A stretch of DNA of 64,000 bases. Origin: Sinorhizobium sp. BG8 (GTDB taxonomy: Bacteria; Pseudomonadota; Alphaproteobacteria; Rhizobiales; Rhizobiaceae). The DNA lies in the NCBI RefSeq assembly GCF_016864555.1, contig NZ_CP044011.1, positions 3,739,501 to 3,803,500 of the forward strand. The letters run 5' to 3'. Below the pieces are notes generated by a model that did no database searches, was not told the origin of the DNA, and saw only the letters and a program-made list of their open reading frames with translations. Both the position numbers and the translations under genes were made by a program. Below, piece by piece: positions 15,508 through 35,110 of the stretch (the stretch's first letter is position 1; every line of letters starts with the position of its first letter).

Positions 15508-17589
15508 ATGCCGAACCTCGTCTACCGTGTCATTTCCGCCTGCGGTGCCCTTGGATACGGATATCCCAAGGAATCGCTCGAAGCCGCATTACAGGGTCGC
15601 ATCGATGCGATCATCTGCGATGGCGGTTCTATGGATGCCGGCCCCTACTATCTTGGAACGGGCACCGAATACTTCGAGACCGAGGCCGTAAAGGCGGACT
15701 TCCGCCACATGGTCGAGGCGGGCCAGAAAATCGGCTGCCCTGTCATTCTCGGAAGCAGCGGCATGGCGGGCGGCAACCGGAATCTCGACTGGATGATCGG
15801 CGTCGCCAAGGAGATCTTCGCAGAGCTCCACGTAGCCGATGCAAAAGTCGCCGTGGTCGGTGCCGAGCTCGATCCGGAGATCGTCATCAAGGAATTCCGC
15901 AAGGGCGCGCTGCGCTCGACGGGTCGAGGTCCGGAGCTCAGCGAACAGGCGCTGCGCGATAGCACCATCGTCGGGCAGATGGGAATCCACCCTCTGATGA
16001 CCGCCCTTGAGAGCGGCGCCCAGTATGTCATCGCGGGCAGATCCTGTGATATCGCGCTCTTCGCTTCCGACATGATCCGTCGCGGCATCGCCCCCGGCCT
16101 CGCTTACCACGTCGGCCATGTGCTCGAATGCGGCGCCCTCGCCTGCGATCCGGGCTCCCCATCCGATTGCCTCGTCGCCGAGATCTACGACGACGGTTCT
16201 GCGCTCTTCATCGCCCCGAATCCGACGCGCCGCTGCACGGCCTATTCCATCGCCGCGCACTCGCTCTACGAGGAGAGCCACCCGCAGCTGCAATTCTATC
16301 CCGAAGGCATTCTCGCCATGGAGAAGACCGAGTTCTTTTCCAGGGACTCCCGTGTTGCCGGCATCCGCAACAGCCGCTTCGTCCGTTCGGCGAAACCGTG
16401 GCCATGGAGCATCAAGCTCGAGGGCGCCCGCCGGCTTGGTGGCCGGAAGGTCTCGCTTCTCTACATAGACCCATCGGATCTCGGGAAGGTCCCGCCGGAC
16501 GTCCTCGTCTACGGCCGCAACGGCGTGCAGCCCATCCCGGTCGAGGGATCCGAACGCGAGCTCGGCATCATCATCGAGACTACCGCGAAGAGCGAGCAGG
16601 CCGCCGTGCTGCTGGCGAGCGTGCTCACCCACTATCTCATCCACTACGGTTACCCGGGTCGCAAGGCGACCGCCGGCAACATCGCCTATCCGCTTTCGCC
16701 CAACCTCGTGAGCTTCCGGCGTGAGGACGGCTCCTATGGGGCCATCGTCCCGAGCGGCACGCGCGATCCGGTGTTCTTCGAAAACTACGCTGCGATCAAG
16801 GCGGCCGTGATTAAACTCGTGGAGCAGGAATTTCCGGACGCGCTCGCCAATGCGCACTACACGATCACGGATGCCGATGCCTCCGCCCCGGCAGTCCTCT
16901 TGAGGACGGTCGACAGTGATCCGGAGAGGCTCGCCGAGCGACACGCGCGAGAGATCGAAGAAATTACCCGTCTCATCACGTCGAAAACGTCCTCACTCTT
17001 CAATCTCGACGCACCGGACGCCTATGCCTGGTCGCTCTATCATCTTCTGCAGAATGAAGACGTGATAAAGAACGTCATGTTTCCGATAACCTACTACCAC
17101 GCGAACGGGAGCGAGTGGACAATCACGGGCAACGATCGGCCAAAGTACTTCGACATCGGCGAGACGGGTTACAAGGGCGACCTCAACGACCGCACCCTTT
17201 CGCTCATCTCCGACATTCCGCCAGATGGAGCGGAGATCGGCACCCACCGTCTGCTCGACATGGCGGTCGTCATTCGCAGCAAGGATGCGGGCGTCAATCG
17301 CCTCACCTTCGATGTCATTTTCACCTCGGGGGAAAACTATGAGGCAGCCCTTCGATCGAATGTCTTCAGCAGGGAAAGTATCGCCGGCATACTGAGGCTG
17401 CCGGCGGAGAGCATCGTCGGGACATTCTTCGTCGATACCTGCAATGCCATCAAGATTTCGGTCGAGAGGCCGAACATCTCCGCCTCACCCGACGAGCGGG
17501 ACGTCTTCGGGGCGCAGCAGCAGGCCCGCCTGGAGCGCCTCAGCATACCGATCCATGCCGCAGCCCTTGCGCGGGCGTCGGCCTTCTGA
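15508..17589 (+). CDS. AtuA-family (DUF1446) protein fused to a DUF4387 domain
   Basis: A 693-residue protein of the acyclic terpene utilisation AtuA/DUF1446 family (about 1-570; ACGALGYGYPKESL, CDGGSMDAGPYYLGTG, GSSGMAGGNRNLDWM). The last 110 residues or so match DUF4387 (AVVIRSKDAGVNRLTFDVIF, AIKISVERPNISASPDERDV, FGAQQQARL). The two domains are normally encoded by separate neighbouring genes. The reaction is not established; AtuA proteins accompany branched or unusual carboxylate catabolism. Context with a 2-hydroxycarboxylate carrier and a 2-oxoacid decarboxylase points to a hydroxy- or oxo-acid substrate. GGGAG lies about ten bases before the ATG. Confidence 0.85.
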   Translation: MPNLVYRVISACGALGYGYPKESLEAALQGRIDAIICDGGSMDAGPYYLGTGTEYFETEAVKADFRHMVEAGQKIGCPVILGSSGMAGGNRNLDWMIGVAKEIFAELHVADAKVAVVGAELDPEIVIKEFRKGALRSTGRGPELSEQALRDSTIVGQMGIHPLMTALESGAQYVIAGRSCDIALFASDMIRRGIAPGLAYHVGHVLECGALACDPGSPSDCLVAEIYDDGSALFIAPNPTRRCTAYSIAAHSLYEESHPQLQFYPEGILAMEKTEFFSRDSRVAGIRNSRFVRSAKPWPWSIKLEGARRLGGRKVSLLYIDPSDLGKVPPDVLVYGRNGVQPIPVEGSERELGIIIETTAKSEQAAVLLASVLTHYLIHYGYPGRKATAGNIAYPLSPNLVSFRREDGSYGAIVPSGTRDPVFFENYAAIKAAVIKLVEQEFPDALANAHYTITDADASAPAVLLRTVDSDPERLAERHAREIEEITRLITSKTSSLFNLDAPDAYAWSLYHLLQNEDVIKNVMFPITYYHANGSEWTITGNDRPKYFDIGETGYKGDLNDRTLSLISDIPPDGAEIGTHRLLDMAVVIRSKDAGVNRLTFDVIFTSGENYEAALRSNVFSRESIAGILRLPAESIVGTFFVDTCNAIKISVERPNISASPDERDVFGAQQQARLERLSIPIHAAALARASAF

Positions 17590-22961: not shown

Positions 22962-22998
22962 GTCCAATATAAACATACAACGTCTTCTAATGTTGGAC
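22962..22998 (+). promoter_or_regulatory. Interrupted inverted repeat upstream of the IclR gene, candidate operator
   Basis: GTCCAATAT at 22962-22970 and ATGTTGGAC at 22990-22998 form an inverted repeat with eight of nine bases paired and a 19-base centre. It overlaps the candidate -10 region and lies just before the preferred IclR start at 23020. Autoregulation is common in IclR proteins; the assignment is positional. Confidence 0.35.
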
Positions 22999-23019
22999 AA
23001 GAGGGAGGTCAAGCAAAAA

Positions 23020-23739
23020 ATGGCGGTGCGCCCACTCACATCGGTGTTGAAGACCCTTGCCGCCTTCGATTGCGTTGCCGCAGCTGCGGAGCCGCTTCGT
23101 CTGGCCGACATTGCCCGCCAGCTCGGCGAGGCGCGTGGCGCAGCCCATCAGCGGCTCGTCACCCTCATCGAAGCGGGCTGGCTGGAACAGACGCAGGACG
23201 GTCGTTACCGCCTGAGCCTGCGCGTCGTCAGCCATGCGGCGATGGCGCTCGAGCAGTCCAATCTCGGCGCCCGGTTTGCCGGGGTGCTGGAGGAGATGGT
23301 CACGCAGAGCGGCGAGACCGCTTCTCTTGCGATCCTGGACGGCAAGGACGCCGTCATCGTCCGCCGCGTCGAATCGCGCGGCGTGCTCAGAGCAGATCTC
23401 AAGGTGGGAGCGCACCTGCGTCTCGATCGCACCGCCTTCGGCCGTGTCCTCGTGTCCTATGCCCGTCCCGAGATCTACGATCGGCTGAAGGCGCAGGGCG
23501 TCAGCCTGCCCGATGAAGACACCATCGCGCACGTGCGAGAGCGGGGCTTTGCGATTTCCGAAGTCGAGGGACCGCGCACGGTATCGGCCGTCGCCGCGCC
23601 GCTCCTGGATGCCCAGGGCGAATGCATCGGTGCGCTCGCCCTTTCCGGCCCATTCACAGGTTTTGACACTGACAAGTGCGCCCAGATCGTCGTCGCTGCC
23701 GCGGCGGAGAGTTCGGGTCGTCTGCGAGGAGAACAATAG
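23020..23739 (+). CDS. IclR-family transcriptional regulator
   Basis: A 239-residue IclR regulator. A winged helix-turn-helix (about 8-65; LRLADIARQLGEARGAAHQR, LIEAGWLEQTQDGRYRLS) is followed by a GAF-like effector domain (RRVESRGVLRADLKVG, LDRTAFGRVLVSYA). The frame opens at ATG 22990, but ATG 23020 (MAVRPLTSVLK) has GGGAGG 11 bases upstream and matches the usual family start. It is immediately followed by the catabolic genes to 35.1 kb, all on the same strand, so it is their likely local regulator. Confidence 0.9.
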   Translation: MAVRPLTSVLKTLAAFDCVAAAAEPLRLADIARQLGEARGAAHQRLVTLIEAGWLEQTQDGRYRLSLRVVSHAAMALEQSNLGARFAGVLEEMVTQSGETASLAILDGKDAVIVRRVESRGVLRADLKVGAHLRLDRTAFGRVLVSYARPEIYDRLKAQGVSLPDEDTIAHVRERGFAISEVEGPRTVSAVAAPLLDAQGECIGALALSGPFTGFDTDKCAQIVVAAAAESSGRLRGEQ

Positions 23740-23740
23740 G

Positions 23741-25477
23741 ATGACCGCCCTGAAGAAACCCGCTCCGGAATCGGACGCATACCGCATCGCGCGGCTGATG
23801 CGCTCGCCCGGCGAGATGATGGAGCCCGCGCGGCTTGCCGCGATCCAGCCGTCCCGCATCAGCGCCTCGCGCGCCCTGATGAGCCGTGCAATTCGCCAGC
23901 GCTGGCAGATCCTGTGCAAGCGTTTCGACATCGATGAAAACGGCAACGGCGTCGCCGAATACCGTATCGAGATCGGCGGCTGGCGCTTCTCGTTTCCCGT
24001 CTATTCCTTCCAGCCCTCGCCGCACGGCCGGACCGGCCGCATCATCGGCCGCAGCTGGGACATGATGGGCGCGCTCGTCGAAGGCGACATGAGCCAGGAA
24101 GACTTCGAAACGACCCGCACGGAACTGCCCAAGCTCTACGAGGGCCGTGCGACGCCGGGCACCCTGATCTGGTGCCGCTCGAACCGCAGCGGCCGCTTCT
24201 TCGAAAGCGCGAAGCAGGCCTTGCAGGCGGGGCGGCAACCCGATGTCGCCGAACTGGCGCAGACCTGCTACCTCATGCGCAATACCGGCCTCGACGGCAA
24301 CGGCACGTTCGGCACGAAGACCTTCCTTGCCTACGAAGGCAACCACCCGCTCCGCTGGTCGCTCGCAGCCCAGATGCTGTGCGCCTACATGATGCGTGTC
24401 TTCGCGCAGGATCTCCTGCAGCATCTCGCCCGCCTCGGCGCACCGCAGGCCCCCGCAATGGCGATGGAGCTTCGCCGCTTTCTCGGCGTCGGAAATGGCT
24501 CCGCCCTCGGGCTTATGCTGTTCGTCAACAACCATCCACGGCTCATCGAGCGTTGGCTTTTCATTCGCGAAGAGGCAATCGCCCGCGCCAAGACGCTGAC
24601 ACCCGACGCAGACGGGTCCGAGATCGCCAGGCTGCTGGCACTCGTGGAAAAAGCGATCACCTTCCGCTCGCAGGACCGCGCCGCCTATGAAAACGTCACG
24701 CGATCCGACCTTCTGGCAGAGGAACTTCAGGTTGTTCGCCAAGCAGTGGCGAGCCTTCTTGAGCGCTGGCGGGCGGGTAGCCGCTTCGAAGCCGAACCGT
24801 TTGCCGAACTCGCAACTTCCCTCGAGGGTCGCATCCATGCCGAAGCGATGGAGACCCTCCATTCGCTGCTGATCGAGCTCGTTCCCGAAGAAGCGGATGC
24901 ACTCGTGGAAGGGCTGACCATCGACGAGGAACTGACCGGCCGCCCGGAAATGCCGGTGGGCCGCCTGCGCGAGGTCCTGCGCAACGACTATAGCTGGGCC
25001 TTCAAGCTCGATCTCGATGTCGAGCCGAGCAAGCGCTACGTCTGGTACAAGTCGATGACTGCCGAGGAGCCGCGTCGCGGCCCGGCCGCAGAGGTCGGCG
25101 AAGACGTCGTCAATCTCGGCCTCGACCTGCCGCGGCTGGTGGTCGCCCTCGATCGCGACCTTGCCGCCGCCGACCCGGAGCTCAGCACGGCGCGCTTCCT
25201 GATCGCCCATCCCCAGCACCGGGCGATCGTCACCCGCGTCCAGGCGCTTGCCGGCACCAGCCTGCATTCGCCGCACGCCGACATCATGAGCGAGGCGTTC
25301 ACGCCCGCCCACATCACCCGTCTCCTCAATGTCGGCATCCACGGCATCGACAAGACACGCGATTTCCTCGACCGCAATTTGCGCGGCGTCCTGTTCCACG
25401 GCGCTCCCACACCGGAAGACATCGCCACCGGAAACGCCGACGACCTGTGGTTCTATCCTGCGGAGCCGAGCCTATGA
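23741..25477 (+). CDS. Uncharacterised 578-aa soluble protein
   Basis: I do not recognise this family. The protein appears cytoplasmic, with no signal peptide or long hydrophobic helix. Striking conserved-looking segments are MRNTGLDGNGTFGTKTF (near 177), FLGVGNGSALGLMLFVNNHP (near 247) and a charged helical C-terminal half (VEPSKRYVWYKSMTAEEPRR). The glycine/asparagine-rich segments suggest a ligand-binding or catalytic site. It starts one base after the IclR stop and overlaps the DUF3726 gene by four bases (ATGA), so the two are translated together. It is a good target for finding the pathway's first enzyme. Confidence 0.75.
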   Translation: MTALKKPAPESDAYRIARLMRSPGEMMEPARLAAIQPSRISASRALMSRAIRQRWQILCKRFDIDENGNGVAEYRIEIGGWRFSFPVYSFQPSPHGRTGRIIGRSWDMMGALVEGDMSQEDFETTRTELPKLYEGRATPGTLIWCRSNRSGRFFESAKQALQAGRQPDVAELAQTCYLMRNTGLDGNGTFGTKTFLAYEGNHPLRWSLAAQMLCAYMMRVFAQDLLQHLARLGAPQAPAMAMELRRFLGVGNGSALGLMLFVNNHPRLIERWLFIREEAIARAKTLTPDADGSEIARLLALVEKAITFRSQDRAAYENVTRSDLLAEELQVVRQAVASLLERWRAGSRFEAEPFAELATSLEGRIHAEAMETLHSLLIELVPEEADALVEGLTIDEELTGRPEMPVGRLREVLRNDYSWAFKLDLDVEPSKRYVWYKSMTAEEPRRGPAAEVGEDVVNLGLDLPRLVVALDRDLAAADPELSTARFLIAHPQHRAIVTRVQALAGTSLHSPHADIMSEAFTPAHITRLLNVGIHGIDKTRDFLDRNLRGVLFHGAPTPEDIATGNADDLWFYPAEPSL

Positions 25478-26199
25478 GTTCATGCCAGACCAACCTCCCC
25501 TCGACCCTGACCGTCAGCCTGCGCGAGATGCGCATGGTTCTTGAGCGGCTCATGCAGGTCACGCGCGTCGAGCCGGGGCTTGTCCCGTCGCTTCGGGATT
25601 GCGCGCTGTTCTCGGCAGCGCTCGGCCTTGGCGGCTTCGCGCGGCTGTCGGACAACCTCGAGGCGGTGAAGGTTGCCGATCCTCATGCGATAAAGCTGGC
25701 CGCCACCGATCGGCCGGTTATCGACTGCGCCCGCCAGCACGCCTGGATAGCCGTGGATGCAGCCCTCGAACTGGCAATCGAAACCCTGCGCACCGGGGGC
25801 AATGGGGCCGTCGAGGTCAAGAACGCCACCGCGATAGGCGAACTGAAGGTCGCCGAAGCTTTGGCGCAACGCTTCGGGCTCAAGGCCACCGTCACGATCG
25901 ACGAAACGGCCGGCACGGCCTTGATCGTCGTCGCGCCGGCGACCGATGCCGCCGACATCGGCATTCTCGGCCGAATTCGCCGCGAAGGGCTCGTGGTCGA
26001 TGCCGGATTGTGGTGGCAGCTGTTCCACCAGTCCGCGGAAGCGCTCGCACCGGACTCCTACATGTCTCGTCGTCACGCCGGCCCGATCATCGTGGAGGCC
26101 GACGGCAAGGTCATTGGCCGGCAGGATGAGGACGAGACCGACCTGTCGTTGCTCCTAGCCGACGCCCCCAGGGGCGAGACCGCGTCAACAAATCACTGA
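25474..26199 (+). CDS. DUF3726-family protein
   Basis: A 241-residue protein resembling DUF3726 family members of unknown function, found in alphaproteobacterial catabolic operons. Features: TVSLREMRMVLERLMQVTRV near the start, a DCALFSAALGLGGFARL segment, and a central alternating segment (GAVEVKNATAIGELKVAEAL). No catalytic motif is evident. The ATG overlaps the previous stop, which ties it to the 578-residue protein, possibly as a two-component enzyme. It ends just before the dipeptidase gene. Confidence 0.7.
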   Translation: MSSCQTNLPSTLTVSLREMRMVLERLMQVTRVEPGLVPSLRDCALFSAALGLGGFARLSDNLEAVKVADPHAIKLAATDRPVIDCARQHAWIAVDAALELAIETLRTGGNGAVEVKNATAIGELKVAEALAQRFGLKATVTIDETAGTALIVVAPATDAADIGILGRIRREGLVVDAGLWWQLFHQSAEALAPDSYMSRRHAGPIIVEADGKVIGRQDEDETDLSLLLADAPRGETASTNH

Positions 26200-26210
26200 A
26201 CGGAACGACC

Positions 26211-27182
26211 ATGATCATCGATGCTCTTCAATGCGGCCACTTCAACCGGGAGTCTTTCGAAGCGCTCAAGCGCGGCGGCTACAGCGCCGTCACGCCGACC
26301 CTCGGTTTCTGGGAAGGAACCATGGAATCGCTGGATTCCCTGGCCCGCTGGCGCGACATGGAGCGTGACAACGCCGACCTCATCCTGATCGCCAAGACCG
26401 CCGCGGACATCGAGCGTGCCGAACGCGAAGGCAAGCTTGCCATCGTGTTGGGTTACCAGAACTCCAACCTCTTCGAGGACCGCATAGCCTTCATCGAGTT
26501 CTTCGCCGAGCTCGGCGTCCGCGTAGTCCAGCTCACCTACAACAACCAGAACGAACTCGGCGGCTCCTGCTACGAGGAAAACGACAGCGGTCTCGCCCGT
26601 TTCGGAAAGGATGTCGTGCGCGAGATGAACCGCGTGGGCATGCTTGTCGACCTTTCGCATGTCGGCGACAGGACGACGCTCGATGCGATCGAGTGGTCGG
26701 AAAAGCCGGTCGCGATCACTCACGCCAACGCTGCTTCGCTGTTCGAGCACAAGCGCAACAAGTCGGACCGGGTGATCCGCGCGCTGGCTGAGCGCGGTGG
26801 TGTCATCGGCTGCGTCGCCTACCGTAACATCACTCCCGACAGCGCCTGCGCCACCGTCGACGGATGGTGCGAAATGGTCGCCCGGACCGTAGACATCGCC
26901 GGCATCGATCATGTCGGCATCGGCACCGACATCTCGCACAACCACACCCAGCGCGACTACGACTGGATGCGCAAGGGCCGCTGGACGCGCTCGGTTCAGT
27001 ACGGCGCCGGCTCGGCGGCAACGCCGGGCGCGGTTCCGAAGCCTGCCTGGCTGACCAAGCCGGACAGTCTCAAGGACGTGGCGCCGGCGCTGCTGCGTGT
27101 GGGCTTCAACCAGGCAGAGGCCAACAAGATCCTCCGCGACAACTGGCTTCGCCTCTATTCGGAGGTCTTCCGGACCGCCTGA
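26211..27182 (+). CDS. Renal-dipeptidase-like (peptidase M19) amidohydrolase, atypical N-terminal metal site
   Basis: A 323-residue amidohydrolase-fold protein of the M19 membrane dipeptidase family. Family segments are visible: LGYQNSNLFED with the bridging-acid region, LTYNNQNELGGSCYE, MNRVGMLVDLSHVGDRTTLD, the second histidine in ITHANAASL and GIGTDISH near the end. The usual N-terminal HxD metal pair is absent: the protein begins MIIDALQCGHFNRESFE. As I recall, PA5396 of Pseudomonas aeruginosa (IIDGLIIAKWNRELFE) lacks it likewise and belongs to betaine/carnitine-linked genes. A modified one-metal site or a different substrate is likely. Confidence 0.85.
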   Translation: MIIDALQCGHFNRESFEALKRGGYSAVTPTLGFWEGTMESLDSLARWRDMERDNADLILIAKTAADIERAEREGKLAIVLGYQNSNLFEDRIAFIEFFAELGVRVVQLTYNNQNELGGSCYEENDSGLARFGKDVVREMNRVGMLVDLSHVGDRTTLDAIEWSEKPVAITHANAASLFEHKRNKSDRVIRALAERGGVIGCVAYRNITPDSACATVDGWCEMVARTVDIAGIDHVGIGTDISHNHTQRDYDWMRKGRWTRSVQYGAGSAATPGAVPKPAWLTKPDSLKDVAPALLRVGFNQAEANKILRDNWLRLYSEVFRTA

Positions 27183-27291: not shown

Positions 27292-28365
27292 ATGGAAGAG
27301 TTTAAGAATGCATCGGCGACCCCCGTATCAAGGCGCGCCGTTCTGGGTGCCGGCCTGTTCGGAGCCGCGATGCTTGCATCCCCCTTCGTTCGGCGTGCAA
27401 GCGCCGAGGAAAATGTACTTTATGTCAATACATGGGGCGGCGACTGGGAGGCTTCGGTCAAGAAGTTCCTGTTCGACCCCTTTACCGCCGATACCGGGAT
27501 TGAGATCCGCACCGTCTCTCCGATTTCCTTCGCCAAGCTTGCCGCCCAGAAGACCACCGGAGTGTACGAGTTCGACGTGACGACGCTTGGCGTTGCGGAC
27601 GTTGCGCGGGCAAATGCCGCCGGCCTCCTCGAGGCGCTCGACGGCAAGGTCGACGCCTCCGTTCTCTGGGATGGCGCGATCTACGAGAACGGACTTGCCA
27701 CGCACGGTTTCGCCACGCAGATGGCCTACAACAAGACGAAGTATCCTGACGGGCTCAACACCTGGGCAGACTTCTTCAACGTCGAGAAATTCCCGGGCAA
27801 CCGGAGCCTGCAGCGCCATGCGGCACGCGTCCTCGCGATCGCGCTGCTGGCAGACGGCGTTGCCGCGGATCAGCTCTTCCCCTACGACCTCGACCGCGCC
27901 TTCGCCTCGCTCGACAAGATCAAGGCCGACGTCCGCGTCTGGTGGACCGCCGGACCGCAGGCTCGCCAGATCCTGACCGACGGCGAAGTCGACATGGCCG
28001 GCCTCTGGGACAGCGACGCGGCCGGGGCACGGGATGCGTCCAAGGAACCGATCGAAGTCGTCTGGGATCAGGCCGTCGTGGACAAGGCCTGCTGGATCGT
28101 TGCGAAGGATAGCCCGCGCGCGGAGAACGGCTTCAAGCTGATCAGCCATATCGGCCAGAACGCCGAGGGGCTCGCACAGTTCTGCATGGCAGACCAGAAC
28201 GGGCCGCTGAACCCGAAGTCGTTCGAGTTCATCCCTGCCGAAGTCGCCAGCAACATGCCGACCTATCCCGATCACCTCGCACGCGCCGTGATGCTGGATG
28301 GTGCGAAGCTGCTGCCCCAGCTCGACGAGCTGACAAGCCGCTTCGAAAGCTGGGTCGGCATCTGA
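27292..28365 (+). CDS. Polyamine-type (PotD/PotF-like) ABC substrate-binding protein, Tat-exported
   Basis: A 357-residue periplasmic binding protein. A twin-arginine signal (SRRAVLGAGLFGAAML, cleavage near RRASA-EE) is followed by the class I extracellular solute-binding fold (VLYVNTWGGDWEAS, FDVTTLGVADVARA, MAYNKTKYPDGLNTWADF). It belongs to the spermidine/putrescine-type cluster, whose members also bind GABA, opines and other amines. It heads the importer completed by the next three genes. A strong stem-loop follows its stop codon. Confidence 0.9.
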   Translation: MEEFKNASATPVSRRAVLGAGLFGAAMLASPFVRRASAEENVLYVNTWGGDWEASVKKFLFDPFTADTGIEIRTVSPISFAKLAAQKTTGVYEFDVTTLGVADVARANAAGLLEALDGKVDASVLWDGAIYENGLATHGFATQMAYNKTKYPDGLNTWADFFNVEKFPGNRSLQRHAARVLAIALLADGVAADQLFPYDLDRAFASLDKIKADVRVWWTAGPQARQILTDGEVDMAGLWDSDAAGARDASKEPIEVVWDQAVVDKACWIVAKDSPRAENGFKLISHIGQNAEGLAQFCMADQNGPLNPKSFEFIPAEVASNMPTYPDHLARAVMLDGAKLLPQLDELTSRFESWVGI

Positions 28366-28501: not shown

Positions 28502-29353
28502 ATGAAACTCCGGGCGTCTCCGGTCCTGACGGATGGACCGATACCGCTGATGGCTCCGGCGGCCATCTTCCTTTCAATCTTCTTTCTCGTGCCGCTCGGC
28601 TATGTCGGCTGGATGAGCCTGTCGCAGCCCGTGTTCGGCCTGCAGAACTTCGGAAGGCTGCTGCATTCGAGCCTCTTTGCGTCGGTCCTCTACCAGACGT
28701 TCAAGACCGCGTTCCTGGTGACGGTGCTGAGCCTCGTGTTCGCCTATCCCCTCGCCTATGCGGCCGCCAACGGTTCGAAGCGCTTTGCGACCTTCCTGCT
28801 CACCGTCGTGGCGCTCTCCTTCTGGACCAGCTATCTCGTGCGCACCTATGCCTGGATGGTCATCCTGGGCAACCAGGGGCCGGTGACGGCGCTGCTTGCC
28901 TGGTTGGGCTGGGATCCGGCACCGAAGCTTCTCTACACCACCTTCAGCGCCACGCTCGCCATGACCCATGCCCTGATCCCGTTCATGACCATGTCGCTGT
29001 TTTCGGTGATGAAGCGGATCGACCCGCTCTATGTCCGCGCAGCAGAAAGCCTCGGCGCCAACCCGCTGCGAGCCTTTGCAACGGTCTACCTGCCGCTGAG
29101 CGCCCCCGGTATCGTCAACGGCTGCACGCTCGTCTTCATCTCCTGCCTCGGTTTCTATGTCATGCCCGTCCTCCTCGGCAGCCCGCGCGATCAGATGATC
29201 GCCGGCATTATCGGCGACCAGATCGAGCAGACACTCGACTTCGGCCTGGGTTCAGCCATCTCGATCGTCCTGCTTGCACTGACGCTTGCGATCTACGCTC
29301 TCTACAATCGCTTCTTCGGCCTCGATCGGCTGTGGGCAGGAGGCGACCGATGA
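28502..29353 (+). CDS. ABC permease, PotB-like
   Basis: A 283-residue inner-membrane permease with about six helices. The EAA loop that contacts the ATPase is visible as AAESLGANPLRAFATVYLPL near residue 180. The N-terminal helix is preceded by a short basic segment. It overlaps the next permease start by four bases (ATGA). It would form the heterodimeric channel with that permease. Confidence 0.92.
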   Translation: MKLRASPVLTDGPIPLMAPAAIFLSIFFLVPLGYVGWMSLSQPVFGLQNFGRLLHSSLFASVLYQTFKTAFLVTVLSLVFAYPLAYAAANGSKRFATFLLTVVALSFWTSYLVRTYAWMVILGNQGPVTALLAWLGWDPAPKLLYTTFSATLAMTHALIPFMTMSLFSVMKRIDPLYVRAAESLGANPLRAFATVYLPLSAPGIVNGCTLVFISCLGFYVMPVLLGSPRDQMIAGIIGDQIEQTLDFGLGSAISIVLLALTLAIYALYNRFFGLDRLWAGGDR

Positions 29354-30179
29354 ACCCCTGGATTCGCGCTCTGGCGCTTTTGATCGCCGTCTTCGTGGCT
29401 GCCCCGATGTTCATCGTTATCCCGATGTCCTTCAGCTCCGCCGCCTCGCTGGCCTTCCCTCCACCCGGCTATACGCTCGGAAACTACATCAACTTCTTCT
29501 CGGATCCGAACTGGACGCAGCCGCTGATGAACAGCCTGGTGATCGGCGTCGGGACGGTCCTGGTGACGATGCTGGTTGCGGTCCCCGCCTCGTTCGCGCT
29601 GGTGCGGCACATCTTCGTCGGCCGCGGCCTGTTCAACCTGCTGATCATGCTGCCTATGATCGTCCCGACGATCGTCATGGCGCTCGGCTACTACATGTAT
29701 TTCGGGCAGTTGCGGCTGGTGCAGAGCTATCTCGGGTCATTCTCGCCCATAGCTGCATCGCCATGCCGATGTCGACCCTGATCCTGACAGCGGCGCTCAA
29801 GGGCTTCGACCGCTCGGTCGAGAGAGCGGCCATGAGCCTCGGCGCATCGCCCTTGCGCACCTTCCGACTGATTACATTTCCGATGCTACGTCCCGCCTTT
29901 ACCGTCGCTGGGCTGTTCGCCTTCATCGCGTCCTTCGACGAGGCCGTGATCGCCCTCTTCATATCCGGCCGCGACAAGGCGACCCTTCCGCGCCAGATGT
30001 TCAACGCCGTCCGCCAGGAGGCGGATCCGACAATCTCCGCCGCCTCCTCCTTCCTGTTCCTGCTGGTCCTTGCCGGCATCTGCATCTGGCTTGCGCCGCA
30101 GCTCGTACGCCGCCGCACCCGCACCGCAGATCAGTCACAAGGCAACGGTGCCACCCAGACCGCAGCCGCGGCATCCTGA
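29350..30179 (+). pseudogene. ABC permease, PotC-like, interrupted by a single-base frameshift
   Basis: The second permease of the amine importer. The first frame reads from ATG 29350 (MNPWIRALALLIAVF) through four helices to VQSYLG, then goes out of frame and stops at 29781. The rest, including the EAA loop (RAAMSLGASPLRTFRLITFP) and last helices, continues in another frame to 30179. One extra G in the GGG at 29734-29736 would restore a continuous protein of about 276 residues (SYLG then VILAHSCIAMPMS). Either a sequencing error or a genuine lesion that would disable the importer. Confidence 0.85.
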
Positions 30180-30195
30180 TACAAGGAGCATAGAA

Positions 30196-31245
30196 ATGAA
30201 CGCCCGTTCCCTCACGCTTCGCAACGTCAACAAGTCCTATGACGGCGTGCACATGGCCGCCGACGACGTTTCCCTCGACATCAAGGCCGGCGAATTCGTC
30301 TCCTTCCTCGGGCCGTCGGGTTCGGGCAAGACCACGACGCTGATGATGATCGCCGGCTTCCAGCATCCGACGAGCGGCGAGATCCGTCTCGGCGAGCGCG
30401 CCATCGACAACCTGCCACCCCACAAGCGCAACATCGGCATGGTGTTCCAGAACTACGCGCTCTTCCCGCACATGACGATTGCCGACAACGTCGCCTTTCC
30501 CTTGCGCATGCGCGGCGTGTCGAAGCCGGAAAAGGAACGCCGCTCCCGCGAGGCGCTGGCGAAGGTTGGACTTCAGGGTTTCGAGAAGCGCATCCCTTCC
30601 GAGCTGTCCGGCGGCCAGCAGCAGCGGGTGGCGCTTGCGCGTGCCCTCGTCTTCGAGCCCGACATCATCCTGCTCGACGAGCCGCTCGGCGCCCTCGACA
30701 AGGCGCTGCGTGAGCACATGCAGGTGGAACTCAAGCGCATCCACAAGGATCTCGGCGTCACCATGGTCTACGTCACCCACGACCAGACCGAGGCGATGAC
30801 CATGTCCGACCGCATCGCAGTCTTCAACCAGGGCCGTATCGAGCAGATCGGCACGCCGGACGAGATCTACTTCGCGCCAAAGACCCGCTTCGTCGCCTCC
30901 TTCATCGGAGACAGTAACATCATCGAGGCTTCAGCCCTTGGCGATGGCCGCTTCGAAACCGCAGTCGGCGTCGTCGAAGCGCGGGCAACCGGTGCCGAGC
31001 GCAACAGCCGCGCCGATCTTCTGCTGCGTCCGGAGATGATACGGATCGCCGATGCGGCTCAGCCCGATCGCCGGCCATTCAAGATCGACACCACCATCAA
31101 CTATGGCGACAATCTCCTCGTCATCGGCAAGCTCGGCACGCAGGCGATCCGCATGCGCGTTCCGGGCGTCGATGCGCGCAGGCTCACGGGCTCTTCGGAG
31201 TGCCACGTGACCTGGCGCAGCGAAGATATCCACGTCATCGCCTGA
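30196..31245 (+). CDS. ABC transporter ATPase, PotA-like
   Basis: The 349-residue energy-coupling subunit of the amine importer. Walker A GPSGSGKTT (near 40), Q-loop VFQNYALFPHMT, signature LSGGQQQRVALARAL, Walker B IILLDEPLGALDK and H-loop VTHDQTEAM are all intact. The C-terminal part (about 245-349) is the TOBE/OB regulatory domain typical of spermidine/putrescine-type ATPases. ATG at 30196 follows AAGGAG. It lies 16 bases after the frameshifted permease. Confidence 0.94.
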   Translation: MNARSLTLRNVNKSYDGVHMAADDVSLDIKAGEFVSFLGPSGSGKTTTLMMIAGFQHPTSGEIRLGERAIDNLPPHKRNIGMVFQNYALFPHMTIADNVAFPLRMRGVSKPEKERRSREALAKVGLQGFEKRIPSELSGGQQQRVALARALVFEPDIILLDEPLGALDKALREHMQVELKRIHKDLGVTMVYVTHDQTEAMTMSDRIAVFNQGRIEQIGTPDEIYFAPKTRFVASFIGDSNIIEASALGDGRFETAVGVVEARATGAERNSRADLLLRPEMIRIADAAQPDRRPFKIDTTINYGDNLLVIGKLGTQAIRMRVPGVDARRLTGSSECHVTWRSEDIHVIA

Positions 31246-31290
31246 TCGCCCATTTCCGTTTCTACGAGTGCATTCCTGATGGAGCCTGCC

Positions 31291-32676
31291 ATGAACGATC
31301 GTCCAAATTCCCTGCACGCCCTGGACAAGCAAACCCTGGTTCATCCCTACACGAACCTGGCGGTACACCAGGAGGTCGGGCCGCATGTGATTACCGGCGG
31401 CGAAGGCATCTACGTCATCGACGACGAGGGCAAGCGTTACATCGAGGGCTTGGCCGGGCTCTTCTGCGCCGGCCTCGGCTTCAGCGAACCCCGTCTCGTG
31501 GAAGCGGCGACCCGGCAGCTCAAGACGATGCCGTTCTACCATTCCTTCGCCCACAAATCGACGGAACCCGGTATCCGGCTCGCCGAGACACTGCTCTCCA
31601 TGGCACCCGTACCGATGTCGAAGGTCTTCTTCGCCGGCTCCGGCTCGGAGGCCAACGACACGGCGATCAAGCTGATCTGGTACTACAACAACGCGCTTGA
31701 GCGGCCGAAGAAGAAGAAGATAATTTCCCGGCGCAAGGCCTATCACGGCGTCACGGTCGCGACGGCGAGCCTCACCGGCCTGCCCTTCAACCACCGCGAC
31801 TTCGATCTTCCGATCGCGAACATCCTCCACACTGACTGCCCGCACTATTGGCGCTTCGCCGAACCCGGCGAAAGCGAGGAGGACTTTGCCACCCGGCTTG
31901 CCGACAACCTCGAAGCGTTGATTCTGGAGGAAGGTCCGGACACGATCGCCGCATTCTTCGCCGAACCGGTCATGGTGTCGGGCGGCGTCATCACACCGCC
32001 GAAGACCTATTTCGAGAAGATCCAGGCGATCCTCAGGAAATACGACATCCTCCTGGTTGCCGACGAGGTCATTTGCGGTTTCGGCCGCACCGGCAACATG
32101 TTCGGCTCCGAGACCTACGGCATGAAGCCCGACATGATCAGTTGCGCCAAGCAGCTTTCGGCGGCCTACATGCCGATCTCCGCACTGATGATCAACGAGA
32201 AGATTGCCGAAGCGCTCGTTGACCAGAGCCGCAAGATCGGAACGTTCTCGCACGGCTACACCTATGGCGGACATCCGGTCGCGGCCGCCGTCGCGCTCGA
32301 GGCGCTGAGGATCTACCAGGAGATTGACATCGTCTCCCACGTCCGCGCCGTGGCGCCCCGCTTCCAGAAAGGCATTGCCAGGCTCGGTGAGCATCCGCTG
32401 ATCGGCGAGGCGCGAGGCGTCGGGCTCGTCGCCGGCCTTGAGTTCGTCAAGGACAAGGCGACCAAGGAGAATTTTCCGCCTGCCTGGCAGGTCGCCAACC
32501 ACGCCGGAAAGTTCGCCACCGAGCGTGGCGTCCTGACCCGCGGTCTCGGCGACATGGTGAGCCTCTGCCCCGCCATGATCATCAACGAGGAACAGATCGA
32601 CGACCTCATGAGCCGCATGCAGCTCGCGCTCGACGACACCCTCGCCTGGGCGCGCGCCCAGGGCTACATGTCCTGA
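31291..32676 (+). CDS. Class III PLP-dependent aminotransferase (omega-amino acid:pyruvate type)
   Basis: A 461-residue class III transaminase transferring a terminal amino group, probably to pyruvate, to give a semialdehyde. The PLP-binding lysine is Lys287 (SCAKQLSAAYMPISA), the cofactor-anchoring aspartate lies in VADEVICGFGRTGNMFG, the phosphate-contacting loop is GSGSEANDTAIK, and FSHGYTYGGHPVAAA is typical of the family. ATG 31291 has GGAG ten bases upstream and is preferred over ATG 31279. The aldehyde dehydrogenase gene 13 bases downstream would oxidise the product. Confidence 0.9.
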   Translation: MNDRPNSLHALDKQTLVHPYTNLAVHQEVGPHVITGGEGIYVIDDEGKRYIEGLAGLFCAGLGFSEPRLVEAATRQLKTMPFYHSFAHKSTEPGIRLAETLLSMAPVPMSKVFFAGSGSEANDTAIKLIWYYNNALERPKKKKIISRRKAYHGVTVATASLTGLPFNHRDFDLPIANILHTDCPHYWRFAEPGESEEDFATRLADNLEALILEEGPDTIAAFFAEPVMVSGGVITPPKTYFEKIQAILRKYDILLVADEVICGFGRTGNMFGSETYGMKPDMISCAKQLSAAYMPISALMINEKIAEALVDQSRKIGTFSHGYTYGGHPVAAAVALEALRIYQEIDIVSHVRAVAPRFQKGIARLGEHPLIGEARGVGLVAGLEFVKDKATKENFPPAWQVANHAGKFATERGVLTRGLGDMVSLCPAMIINEEQIDDLMSRMQLALDDTLAWARAQGYMS

Positions 32677-32689
32677 GAAGAGGCCGACC

Positions 32690-34153
32690 ATGACCTCAGA
32701 CAACACATCCTTCGCCTACGAGCGGCTCGGCATGCTGATCGGTGGCCGCTGGATCTACGATGCCGAGCGGCGTGGCGAGGTTCTCGACCCCGCGACCGGC
32801 CAGGTTATCGGCCATCTGCCGCACGCGACGGATGCCGACCTTGCCGAGGCCGTCGCCTCCGCCCAGCGCGCCTTCGAGAAATGGAAGGATCGTTCCCCGC
32901 TCGAGCGGGGCCAGATCCTGCGCCGTTTCGCCGACCTCGCCCGCAAGCACGCCGACGAGATCGGCCGCAGCATGACGCGCGACCAGGGCAAACCGCTCGC
33001 CGAAGCAATCGGCGAGATCCGTTTTGCCGCAGACCATGCCGACTGGCACGCTGAAGAGGCACGCCGCATCTACGGCCGGGTAATTCCCTCGCGCGATCCG
33101 CGCGTGCAGCAGCTTGTCGTACGCGAACCGGTCGGGGTCTGCATCGCGTTCACGCCGTGGAACTTCCCCTTCAGCCAGGCACTGCGCAAGGTCGTGGCGG
33201 CGCTCGCGAGCGGCTGCACGATTATCCTCAAGGGGCCGGCGGAATCGCCCTCCTCCACGGTCGCAATCGCACGGCTGATGCAGGAATCCGGCTTGCCGGA
33301 CGGTTGTCTCAACATCGTCTGGGGTTCCTCTACCCACATTTCCGAGACGCTTCTTTCATCTCCCGAGGTGAAGAAGATCTCGTTCACCGGATCCGTGGAG
33401 GTCGGCAAACTGCTGGCCTCGCTTGCCGGACGCCACATGAAGCGCTCCACCATGGAGCTCGGCGGGCATGCGCCCGTCATCGTCTACGACGACGCTGATA
33501 TCGATGCAGCCGCCGAAGCCCTCGCGGCCCAGAAGATCCGCAATGCCGGCCAGGTCTGCATATCCCCGACCCGGTTCTATGTGCAGGCGAAGGCATATGA
33601 CCGCTTCGTGGCACGCTTCGCGGAGAAGGTCGCCGAGACGAAGGTCGGCAACGGATTTGACGATGGCGTGCAAATGGGCCCGCTGTGCCATGCGCGGCGG
33701 GTTACTGCCATGGAGAGCTTCGTACAGGACGCGCGCGAACAGGGCGCCGAAATCGTCGCCGGCGGTACACGGATCGGCAACGCCGGTTATTTCTATGCCC
33801 CCACCGTGGTTGCCGGCGGCACGGACGCGCTCCGCTTGATGAACGAAGAGCCTTTCGGGCCGATTGCGGTCGCAACACCCTTCGGCGATTTCGACGAGGT
33901 GATCCGCCGCGCCAACAGCCTGCCCTTCGGTCTCGCCTCATACGTCTTCACCGGATCGAGCAGCCGTGCCCAAAACACGGCCCGTGCACTTGCTGCCGGC
34001 ATGGTCAGCATCAACCACTTCGGACTGGCCCTGCCCGAAACGCCGTTTGGCGGCATCAATGACAGCGGCTACGGCAGTGAGGGGGGCGAGGAAACCTTCG
34101 ACGGTTACTTGAGCACCAAATTCGTCACGCGGTTCGACGCGGTTCCCGCGTAA
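32690..34153 (+). CDS. NAD(P)-dependent aldehyde dehydrogenase, succinate-semialdehyde type (GabD-like)
   Basis: A 487-residue aldehyde dehydrogenase that probably oxidises the semialdehyde made by the adjacent aminotransferase. The catalytic cysteine is Cys290 (NAGQVCISPTRF) and the general base Glu256 (MELGGHAP), the normal spacing of 34. The cofactor-binding segments FTPWNFPFSQ and FTGSVEVGKLL are intact. It groups by sequence with succinate-semialdehyde and related omega-carboxylic semialdehyde dehydrogenases; the exact substrate is inferred. Confidence 0.91.
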   Translation: MTSDNTSFAYERLGMLIGGRWIYDAERRGEVLDPATGQVIGHLPHATDADLAEAVASAQRAFEKWKDRSPLERGQILRRFADLARKHADEIGRSMTRDQGKPLAEAIGEIRFAADHADWHAEEARRIYGRVIPSRDPRVQQLVVREPVGVCIAFTPWNFPFSQALRKVVAALASGCTIILKGPAESPSSTVAIARLMQESGLPDGCLNIVWGSSTHISETLLSSPEVKKISFTGSVEVGKLLASLAGRHMKRSTMELGGHAPVIVYDDADIDAAAEALAAQKIRNAGQVCISPTRFYVQAKAYDRFVARFAEKVAETKVGNGFDDGVQMGPLCHARRVTAMESFVQDAREQGAEIVAGGTRIGNAGYFYAPTVVAGGTDALRLMNEEPFGPIAVATPFGDFDEVIRRANSLPFGLASYVFTGSSSRAQNTARALAAGMVSINHFGLALPETPFGGINDSGYGSEGGEETFDGYLSTKFVTRFDAVPA

Positions 34154-34279: not shown

Positions 34280-34669
34280 ATGTTTGAAGCCATCGATACC
34301 GGCTCGGATCCATCCGATGTTCCGGTCAGCGAAGTCGTCCGCGCCGGCAACCTCGTCTGGTCGGTCCATGTATCCGAAGACCCGGTCAACGGTGGTCTCG
34401 TCCTCGGTGACATCGAAACCCAGACGCGCCGCACGCTCGGGAACCTCGACATCGCCATTCGCGCCGCCGGCGGAACGCTTGCCGACGTGGTGCAGGTACA
34501 GGTCTTCCTCGTAGAAAAGACGGACTCGGCGGGCATGAACAAGGTCTATGCAGAGTATTTCAAGGAGCCCTATCCGGTGCGCGCGACCGTCGTCGTGAAG
34601 GAACTCCTGGCCGAGGGCCTCAGGATCGAAATCCTTGCGCACGCCGTTCTCGGAGAAGCCGCGAAGTGA
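34280..34669 (+). CDS. RidA/YjgF-family protein, copy 1
   Basis: A 129-residue RidA/YjgF/UK114 family protein, a group that hydrolyses reactive enamine/imine intermediates or acts in amino-compound catabolism. It has the family pattern GDIETQTRRTLGNLDIAIRA, the LADVVQVQVFL strand and the substrate arginine region PYPVRATVVVKELL. The 127 bases before it hold no gene. A close homologue follows 63 bases downstream. Confidence 0.88.
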   Translation: MFEAIDTGSDPSDVPVSEVVRAGNLVWSVHVSEDPVNGGLVLGDIETQTRRTLGNLDIAIRAAGGTLADVVQVQVFLVEKTDSAGMNKVYAEYFKEPYPVRATVVVKELLAEGLRIEILAHAVLGEAAK

Positions 34670-34732
34670 GCTGCGCGTGCCGCTGGAATGCCCCAGAAGG
34701 ACCCGGCGCCACTTTCCTCAGGAAAATCGTAC

Positions 34733-35110
34733 ATGTTTGAAAAAGTCGAAACCGGCATCTTCGCGTCGAAGGCACCCCTCAGCGGAACGGTCAAGGCCGG
34801 CCGCATCGTGCGCTCGGCCCACATCGCCAAGAACCCCGAAACTGGCGAACTCGTCACCGGTGATATCGAAACGCAGGCTCGCCAGGTGTTTGCCAATCTG
34901 CGGCAGGCGCTGGCGGCCGCTGGGGGCACACTCGCCGACGTCGTGCAGATACAGGCGTATCTGATCGACAAGGCGGATGCCCCCGGCATGAACCGCGTCT
35001 ACCGCACGTTCTTCTCCGCGCCCTACCCCGTGCGCGCAACCGTCGTCACAGACCTCCTGTCAGCAGGCATTCGGCTGGAGATCATGGCGACGGCGGTCGT
35101 CGAGACCTAG
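34733..35110 (+). CDS. RidA/YjgF-family protein, copy 2
   Basis: A 125-residue RidA-family protein clearly homologous to its neighbour: GDIETQARQVFANLRQALAA, LADVVQIQAYLIDKADAPGM and PYPVRATVVTDLL align without gaps to copy 1. Most likely a tandem duplication; the two could form a mixed trimer or act on successive imines. ATG at 34733 has AGGA ten bases upstream. It is the last gene of the IclR-headed operon, followed by a terminator-like hairpin. Confidence 0.88.
   Translation: MFEKVETGIFASKAPLSGTVKAGRIVRSAHIAKNPETGELVTGDIETQARQVFANLRQALAAAGGTLADVVQIQAYLIDKADAPGMNRVYRTFFSAPYPVRATVVTDLLSAGIRLEIMATAVVET

Follow-up and report, generated by a model that had tools for sequence, protein, structure and literature searches.

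A near-obligate gene pair joining a protein family without detected relatives to a putative former dehydrogenase in amine-type catabolic operons

Comparison across loci shows that a 578-residue protein, here called UNK, and a smaller partner of the DUF3726 family form one functional unit, being encoded together nearly always and fused into a single chain in four actinobacterial loci. Judged by sequence and by searches with the whole predicted model, UNK is a family without a detected relative, and its fold may be new. That the partner has the fold of Ldh_2 (the type-2 malate/lactate dehydrogenases, DpkA-like) without the NAD(P)-binding domain is well supported by profile comparisons and predicted structures. 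We propose, with a probability of roughly 0.4 for the proposal as a whole, that the pair acts early in a catabolic pathway and would make an imine or enamine from an N-heterocyclic betaine or an amine. The UNK family is widespread, with at least 577 confirmed matches, and carries no name, fold or reaction; its tie to a former dehydrogenase and to an imine-forming step would give a testable reaction to hundreds of genes now annotated as "hypothetical protein".

The gene pair and its operon

The pair was found in a window of 64,000 nucleotides, the whole stretch of DNA that was analysed, from Sinorhizobium sp. BG8, whose genome comprises 5.67 Mb in two contigs. The closest plasmid relatives lie on Sinorhizobium pSymB-type replicons, with identities of 87% for UNK and 74% for the partner. 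The original prediction, made from the letters of the window, had described two proteins without known function that overlap by ATGA at the head of an amine-type catabolic operon. The overlap of the 578-residue protein with its smaller partner was borne out (shared bases 25474-25477), and the amine-type catabolic operon around the pair is likewise supported. The position at the head was nearly right: the pair does lie close to the start, but the first gene of the string is one of the IclR type, which has the same orientation and stops 1 nt short of UNK, leaving the pair as genes 2 and 3. The features of the operon are as follows.

22990-23739, + strand: IclR-type regulator (PF01614, E 4.6e-22; PF09339, E 4.4e-13)
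23741-25477, + strand: UNK, 578 aa, the larger protein of the two, ATG start; no family or fold match found
25474-25477, + strand: ATGA stop/start overlap read from the sequence, predicted translational coupling
25474-26199, + strand: DUF3726-family partner, 241 aa, ATG start; predicted Ldh_2 fold without the NAD(P)-binding domain
26211-27182, + strand: M19-type amidohydrolase fold with the M19 zinc ligands lost (PF01244, E 6.9e-78)
27292-28365, + strand: substrate-binding protein, PotD-like (PF13416, E 3.2e-42; PotD, E 5.3e-10, below cut-off)
28502-29353, + strand: ABC permease 1 (open reading frame; identity read from sequence and position)
29350-30179, + strand: ABC permease 2, frame broken once near 29.75 kb
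30190-31245, + strand: ABC ATPase, PotA-like, start approximate (open reading frame; same-family frames in relatives)
31279-32676, + strand: class III aminotransferase (PF00202, E 1.6e-86; PRK06105, 774 bits, cut-off 517)
32690-34153, + strand: aldehyde dehydrogenase (PF00171, E 1.8e-156; TIGR01780, 480 bits, cut-off 646)
34280-34669, + strand: first RidA-family protein (PF01042, E 2.9e-22)
34688-35110, + strand: second RidA-family protein (PF01042, E 3.4e-24)

The closest model for the aldehyde dehydrogenase is succinate-semialdehyde dehydrogenase, under its cut-off. The second permease runs in one uninterrupted frame in 24 relatives, and its frame change in the window is either a sequencing error or the mark of a disabled importer. 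Elsewhere in the window (15508-17589) a 693-aa fusion of AtuA (PF07287) and DUF4387 (PF14330) is encoded.

The coupling of the two genes was followed in 107 unfused loci, counted apart from the window copy (L001) and the four fused loci, and with L004 and L056 being identical copies. A four-base stop/start overlap is present in 75 of them (64 ATGA, 7 GTGA and 4 TTGA), a one-base overlap in 11 and neither type in 21; being kept across loci, the coupling exceeds chance.

UNK, a family without detected relatives

Searches of UNK against Pfam and NCBIfam gave no match at useful E-values, and only chance-level matches were returned when 25 of its relatives were compared with Pfam and the UNK profile with PDB sequences. 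Readings of UNK as Knl-2-like (E 0.036) or as V-ATPase subunit C (E 0.14) were rejected as chance-level scores. The AlphaFold2 model was confident (pLDDT 90.8, pTM 0.92), and a Foldseek search with it against PDB and BFVD gave 0 matches with E<=0.001, the best PDB entry standing at E 0.054. A second look with VIA reached a best Z of 7.3, for one long helix pair (helices 286-349 only), and both programs returned helix-bundle rows only; they were given the whole 578-residue model, in which single-domain matches could be hidden. YgiF (CYTH-CHAD), first in the ranking twice (E 0.054 and 0.022), was discarded as the fold at a TM of 0.08 and an rmsd near 22. The larger protein had been placed outside known enzyme families, and the searches agree, with no match by sequence and no clear fold match in PDB.

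About 50 residues of UNK are invariant across 60 relatives. They include the arginines R97, R100, R136, R146, R152, R180, R246, R445, R499, R527 and R548, the aromatic residues W55, W106, W419, W435, W570, Y74, Y177 and Y436, and the glutamates E277, E371, E379 and E443. The Gly/Asn segments that had been called conserved-looking in the larger protein are represented by G249-x-G251-N252, which is invariant in the same 60 relatives. The invariant set would suit an anionic or aromatic ligand, and no cofactor motif was found in the UNK sequence.

The partner as a former dehydrogenase

Within the partner alignment, 20 of the 31 members match DUF3726 (PF12525, a model that spans 73 positions only); Ldh_2 is matched by 8 of them, the best at E 4.8e-12. 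The DUF3726 label of the original prediction is therefore right for the family, most of whose aligned members match, but not for the window protein itself, which falls short of PF12525 and reaches 15.8 bits with the Ldh_2 model (PF02615), well under the cut-off of 38.8. The description of both proteins as uncharacterised holds, with the qualification that the partner proved to have known kin, as a remote Ldh_2 homologue. An hhalign comparison of the partner profile with seven Ldh_2 neighbours gave E 4e-7 at a probability of 92.8. Against PDB sequences the profile found the Ldh_2-type entries 1z2i (E 4.5e-4), 2x06 and 1nxu, in a list shared with two designed TIM barrels (E 0.004-0.008). A literature search on DUF3726 found no papers.

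Structural comparison was made with the model of a fused UNK–partner protein (pLDDT 81.7, pTM 0.70), in which the linker has a pLDDT of about 30-40 and the placing of the two domains relative to each other is uncertain. With the partner domain (residues 600-813, the Ldh_2 fold being read over 604-792), the top 14 rows of VIA were all of the Ldh_2 type, at Z 8.7-11.3 and rmsd 3.5-4.3 with about 174-186 of about 340 residues aligned, and the next row, an unrelated one, stood at Z 4.2; Foldseek alone scored the same entries at E-values over 0.1 and at probabilities as high as 0.99. Both chain ends of the Ldh_2 structures are aligned and about 150 of the 340 residues between them are absent, a pattern consistent with the NAD(P)-binding domain having been lost from the partner, whose median length is 242.5 aa. 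The conserved His of the SHG motif, which we take to be the catalytic position in Ldh_2, is aligned with a Leu in the window partner and is kept in 21 of 104 partners. With the NAD(P)-binding domain lost and the catalytic His gone, the window partner should not be a dehydrogenase.

The possibility that DUF3726 is a family without relatives was ruled out by the Ldh_2 matches from profiles, PDB and VIA. Aligning the fused proteins jointly with UNK and partner rows placed the partner rows on the wrong half, and this alignment was dropped.

Co-occurrence and distribution

A profile-pattern scan with one genome per species yielded at least 577 confirmed UNK matches among 591 stretches, and the best 80 of these were kept, a sample that leans to closer relatives and Gammaproteobacteria. 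Hosts among the matches listed are Pseudomonadota, Actinomycetota (Leucobacter, Labedella, Pedococcus) and Bacillota (Brevibacillus, Salimicrobium), and a relative is also found in the haloarchaeon Natrinema.

Whether the two proteins always occur together had been put forward as a check, and the association proved near strict: in 398 evenly drawn genomes of Pseudomonadota, UNK was found in 29 genomes as 33 copies, and all 33 copies have an adjacent partner match. The wider census of the pair covered 112 loci (109 distinct proteins) with a partner profile built solely from adjacent genes; an earlier, iterated profile had pulled in Ldh_2 genes, whose matches stood at E 1e-20 or better before the rebuild and at 3.8e-5 or weaker after it, the later values being the fair measure. 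A separate partner adjoins UNK in 104 of the 112 loci, and in four, all actinobacterial (L061-L064, with L062 and L063 identical), it is fused to the UNK C-terminus (E 3e-12 to 3e-16). In two loci of Bacillota (L066 and L067) the partner stands one gene further on, after M19; in L083 it is a 422-aa frame that begins at the UNK stop; and in L020 a partner match lies 4.7 kb off on the opposite strand, found in the wider stretch, with none within the short flanks.

UNK was found in 17 of 101 closer genomes, each of which also has the partner, detected by the window protein in 6 and by PF12525 in 11. Two other genomes of this set (G021 and G025) encode a PF12525 protein, about 200 aa long and beside a UbiH-type monooxygenase (label read from sequence), and a stretch of 15 kb there holds no UNK. 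A partner-profile match without UNK was also obtained in 8 of the 398 genomes, in open frames of 340-408 aa that were taken, by length only, as Ldh_2 genes. The near-obligate pairing of UNK and partner is well supported by these counts.

Some individual loci deserve mention. At L118:7289-7891 and L119:7433-8026 a short DUF3726-type protein without UNK comes immediately behind a UbiH-type monooxygenase, with MsrA-like genes close by (both labels read from sequence). One genome (G064) carries three UNK copies (L013, L120 and L121), two of them divergent, and neither L120 nor L121, for which wide flanks were available, has an M19 gene within 8 kb. In G479 and G481, of one genus, the UNK frames each contain one internal TGA and are possibly pseudogenes or errors.

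The M19-type neighbour

The gene that follows the pair matches peptidase family M19 (membrane dipeptidase) in Pfam at 262.4 bits, with a cut-off of 26. Its closest solved chain is 2i5g_A ("amidohydrolase", E 1.9e-67), which likewise has Gln at the position of the Glu ligand and has neither His nor Asp at the aligned N-terminal motif. Aligned with 3id7 and GliJ, the window protein shows Gln in place of the Glu ligand and Tyr in place of the active-site His, the N-terminal His/Asp motif falling outside these two alignments. The two-zinc ligands of M19 are this His, Asp and Glu, with the active-site His beside them. Across 91 loci, the window included, none of these four residues is kept in any locus; all four are replaced in 89, and gaps occur in the other two. 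Two later His, an Arg and an Asp are all kept in 88 of the 91. With the zinc and active-site residues replaced, the dipeptidase name is unsafe, and the label is doubtful from the sequence.

It had also been argued that the order of the two genes before the dipeptidase marks an early step. That argument did not survive: gene order is not constant, M19 lying ahead of UNK in the majority of LysR-type loci and separating UNK from the partner in L066 and L067, and the zinc ligands of M19 are missing from the "dipeptidase". It is highly improbable that the operon serves an amide or dipeptide pathway with UNK and its partner supplying the substrate of a genuine M19 dipeptidase. The Pfam score and the standing of M19 as the most constant neighbour would speak for such a pathway, but against it are the replaced residues for zinc binding and catalysis and the annotated loci around the pair, in which, apart from an M20 gene (L033) and an amidohydrolase (L032), neither a further peptidase nor an importer for peptides was found.

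Operon classes across loci

Neighbouring genes were recorded, up to a limit of 8 kb, in the 80 of 96 loci with flanks of 7 kb or more on either side. M19 is present in 76 of the 80, whereas four have none within 8 kb, and aldehyde dehydrogenase is missing from 24. Both an IclR-type and a LysR-type regulator occur in two loci and neither in five. The LysR-type loci (n=42) contain M19 in 42, aldehyde dehydrogenase in 42, the betaine transporter BCCT in 37, RidA in 32, Ldh_2 in 5 and SoxA-like genes in 6. The IclR-type loci (n=31) contain M19 in 30, a PotA-like ATPase in 27, a substrate-binding protein in 22, aldehyde dehydrogenase in 12 and an aminotransferase in 10; rarer are BCCT, TTT and RidA, with 2 each, the window's own RidA genes lying beyond the 8-kb limit.

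The constancy of M19 bears on the notion that UNK–DUF3726 is non-catalytic, helping M19 or the aldehyde dehydrogenase through assembly, cofactor loading or allosteric control, with the former dehydrogenase domain only sensing a ligand. This is unlikely; it would accord with the nearness of M19 and with the lost cofactor domain, but the roughly 50 invariant residues of UNK, Arg, Trp, Tyr and Glu among them, are more like those of an active site, and the four loci without M19 keep both UNK and partner.

RidA and Ldh_2 are found together in 0 of the 80 loci and in 0 of the 42 LysR-type loci; the chance that all five Ldh_2 loci would fall among the ten LysR-type loci without RidA is 3.0e-4, ignoring kinship. 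In L108 (3556-4644) a complete Ldh_2 gene sits exactly at the place that RidA occupies in L092 (4176-4613), L093, L094 and L100, the gene order being otherwise identical. RidA hydrolyses enamines and imines, and since RidA or Ldh_2 alternate, the earlier steps of the operon probably deliver an imine or enamine. Ldh_2 enzymes such as DpkA reduce imines from 2-oxoacids and methylamine (PMC6110843).

SoxA-like genes occur in 5 of the 10 LysR-type loci without RidA versus 1 of the 32 with it, and an AraC-type gene lies beside them in loci of the LysR clade. The SoxA-like family includes N-methylglutamate dehydrogenase, and the BCCT, SoxA-like and AraC-type genes of this clade seem to resemble N-methylglutamate dehydrogenase clusters. 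For the aldehyde dehydrogenase of one locus (L034) the nearest model is 2,5-dioxovalerate dehydrogenase, at 476 bits under a cut-off of 750, which is what an aldehyde of five carbons would call for. According to a 2026 paper (PMC13390433, citing Ferrer-Gonzalez 2026), Mgd participates in homarine catabolism and tmaR often adjoins mgd. Homarine is the best substrate candidate for the LysR/BCCT sister clade.

The tree places the window in a clade of 40 tips with support 0.998, made up of 28 IclR, 4 fused IclR, 8 unassigned and 0 LysR tips; the LysR tips are in a 69-tip clade of weak support (0.565). As the window clade has no LysR tips, its substrate need not equal that of the LysR clade, and the chemistry of the latter may not carry over to a clade that shares neither LysR nor BCCT with it. 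The contrary case, that the window clade degrades homarine like the LysR clade with another importer and regulator, is quite unlikely. The core of UNK, partner and M19 is common to both clades, and the window has an aldehyde dehydrogenase and a pair of RidA genes; however, the 40-tip clade is without LysR-type tips, BCCT is found in 2 of 31 IclR-type against 37 of 42 LysR-type loci, a class III aminotransferase occurs in 10 of the 31, and the closest aldehyde dehydrogenase model differs.

The proposed early step and its alternatives

According to the proposal, UNK and its partner would be a heteromeric enzyme with its active site situated where UNK meets the substrate-binding portion of the former dehydrogenase. 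The substrate, a carboxylated N-heterocycle or a quaternary amine, would be brought in by the importer of the operon, and the pair would open or activate it early, giving an N-substituted enamine or imine. The M19-fold protein might contribute at this early stage too, perhaps by hydrolysing an N-acyl group with one metal or none; the aldehyde dehydrogenase would oxidise the aldehyde set free, and the imine would then be hydrolysed by RidA or reduced by a complete Ldh_2. In the window operon, with its IclR clade, PotFGHI-like importer, aminotransferase, dehydrogenase of the succinate-semialdehyde type and RidA, the substrate would be a different amine. UNK stands a fair chance of being a new enzyme class. 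A more specific version remains doubtful: UNK–DUF3726, of new fold and new class and with the former dehydrogenase as substrate-binding subunit, would open N-heterocyclic betaines (homarine-type alkaloids and relatives) without flavin, Rieske centre or haem, helped by an M19-fold protein with a rebuilt zinc site in which two His and one Asp are left.

Betaine importers and SoxA-like genes in the sister clade would also suit an N-demethylase or dealkylase for betaines in place of a ring-opening enzyme, and an M19-like gene precedes dgcAB in Vibrio natriegens and Pseudomonas as well (PMC12093977). The prospect is nevertheless slim: demethylation leaves the aldehyde dehydrogenase and the alternation of RidA and Ldh_2 unexplained, and the core set holds no flavin, Rieske or haem gene. 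If the homarine link of the sister clade is true, the early imine-forming step proposed here bears on the breakdown by bacteria of an alkaloid abundant in the sea, and the window clade would represent its counterpart in land bacteria for a different compound. A literature search on the gene set of the operon found no papers; a sister betaine or amine catabolic operon may already be in print.

Comparison with known systems

With the Ldh_2 family (PF02615; YiaK, AllD, DpkA) the partner shares a fold over about 180 residues and a remote sequence similarity, whereas it has about 230 aa instead of about 340 and the His is replaced in most members. The trigonelline pathway (tgnABCDER) opens an N-methylpyridinium carboxylate aerobically, with an aldehyde dehydrogenase and a hydrolase, and uses a flavin two-component oxygenase. 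It resembles the UNK operons in the aldehyde dehydrogenase and the hydrolase and differs from them in the oxygenase, no flavin oxygenase gene being seen in the UNK core set.

The homarine operon homABCDER, reportedly described by Ferrer-Gonzalez et al. in 2026, is said to hold five structural genes. The window operon differs from it in having an IclR gene, a PotFGHI-like importer and an aminotransferase; no LysR, Ldh_2 or SoxA-like gene was found around the window operon, IclR being there instead, which applies to the window clade only. In the Roseobacter clusters, by contrast, a LysR gene accompanies aldehyde dehydrogenase, M19, UNK, DUF3726 and Ldh_2, together with a transporter and next to SoxA-like genes, and these clusters may resemble the homarine operon in combining five structural genes with LysR.
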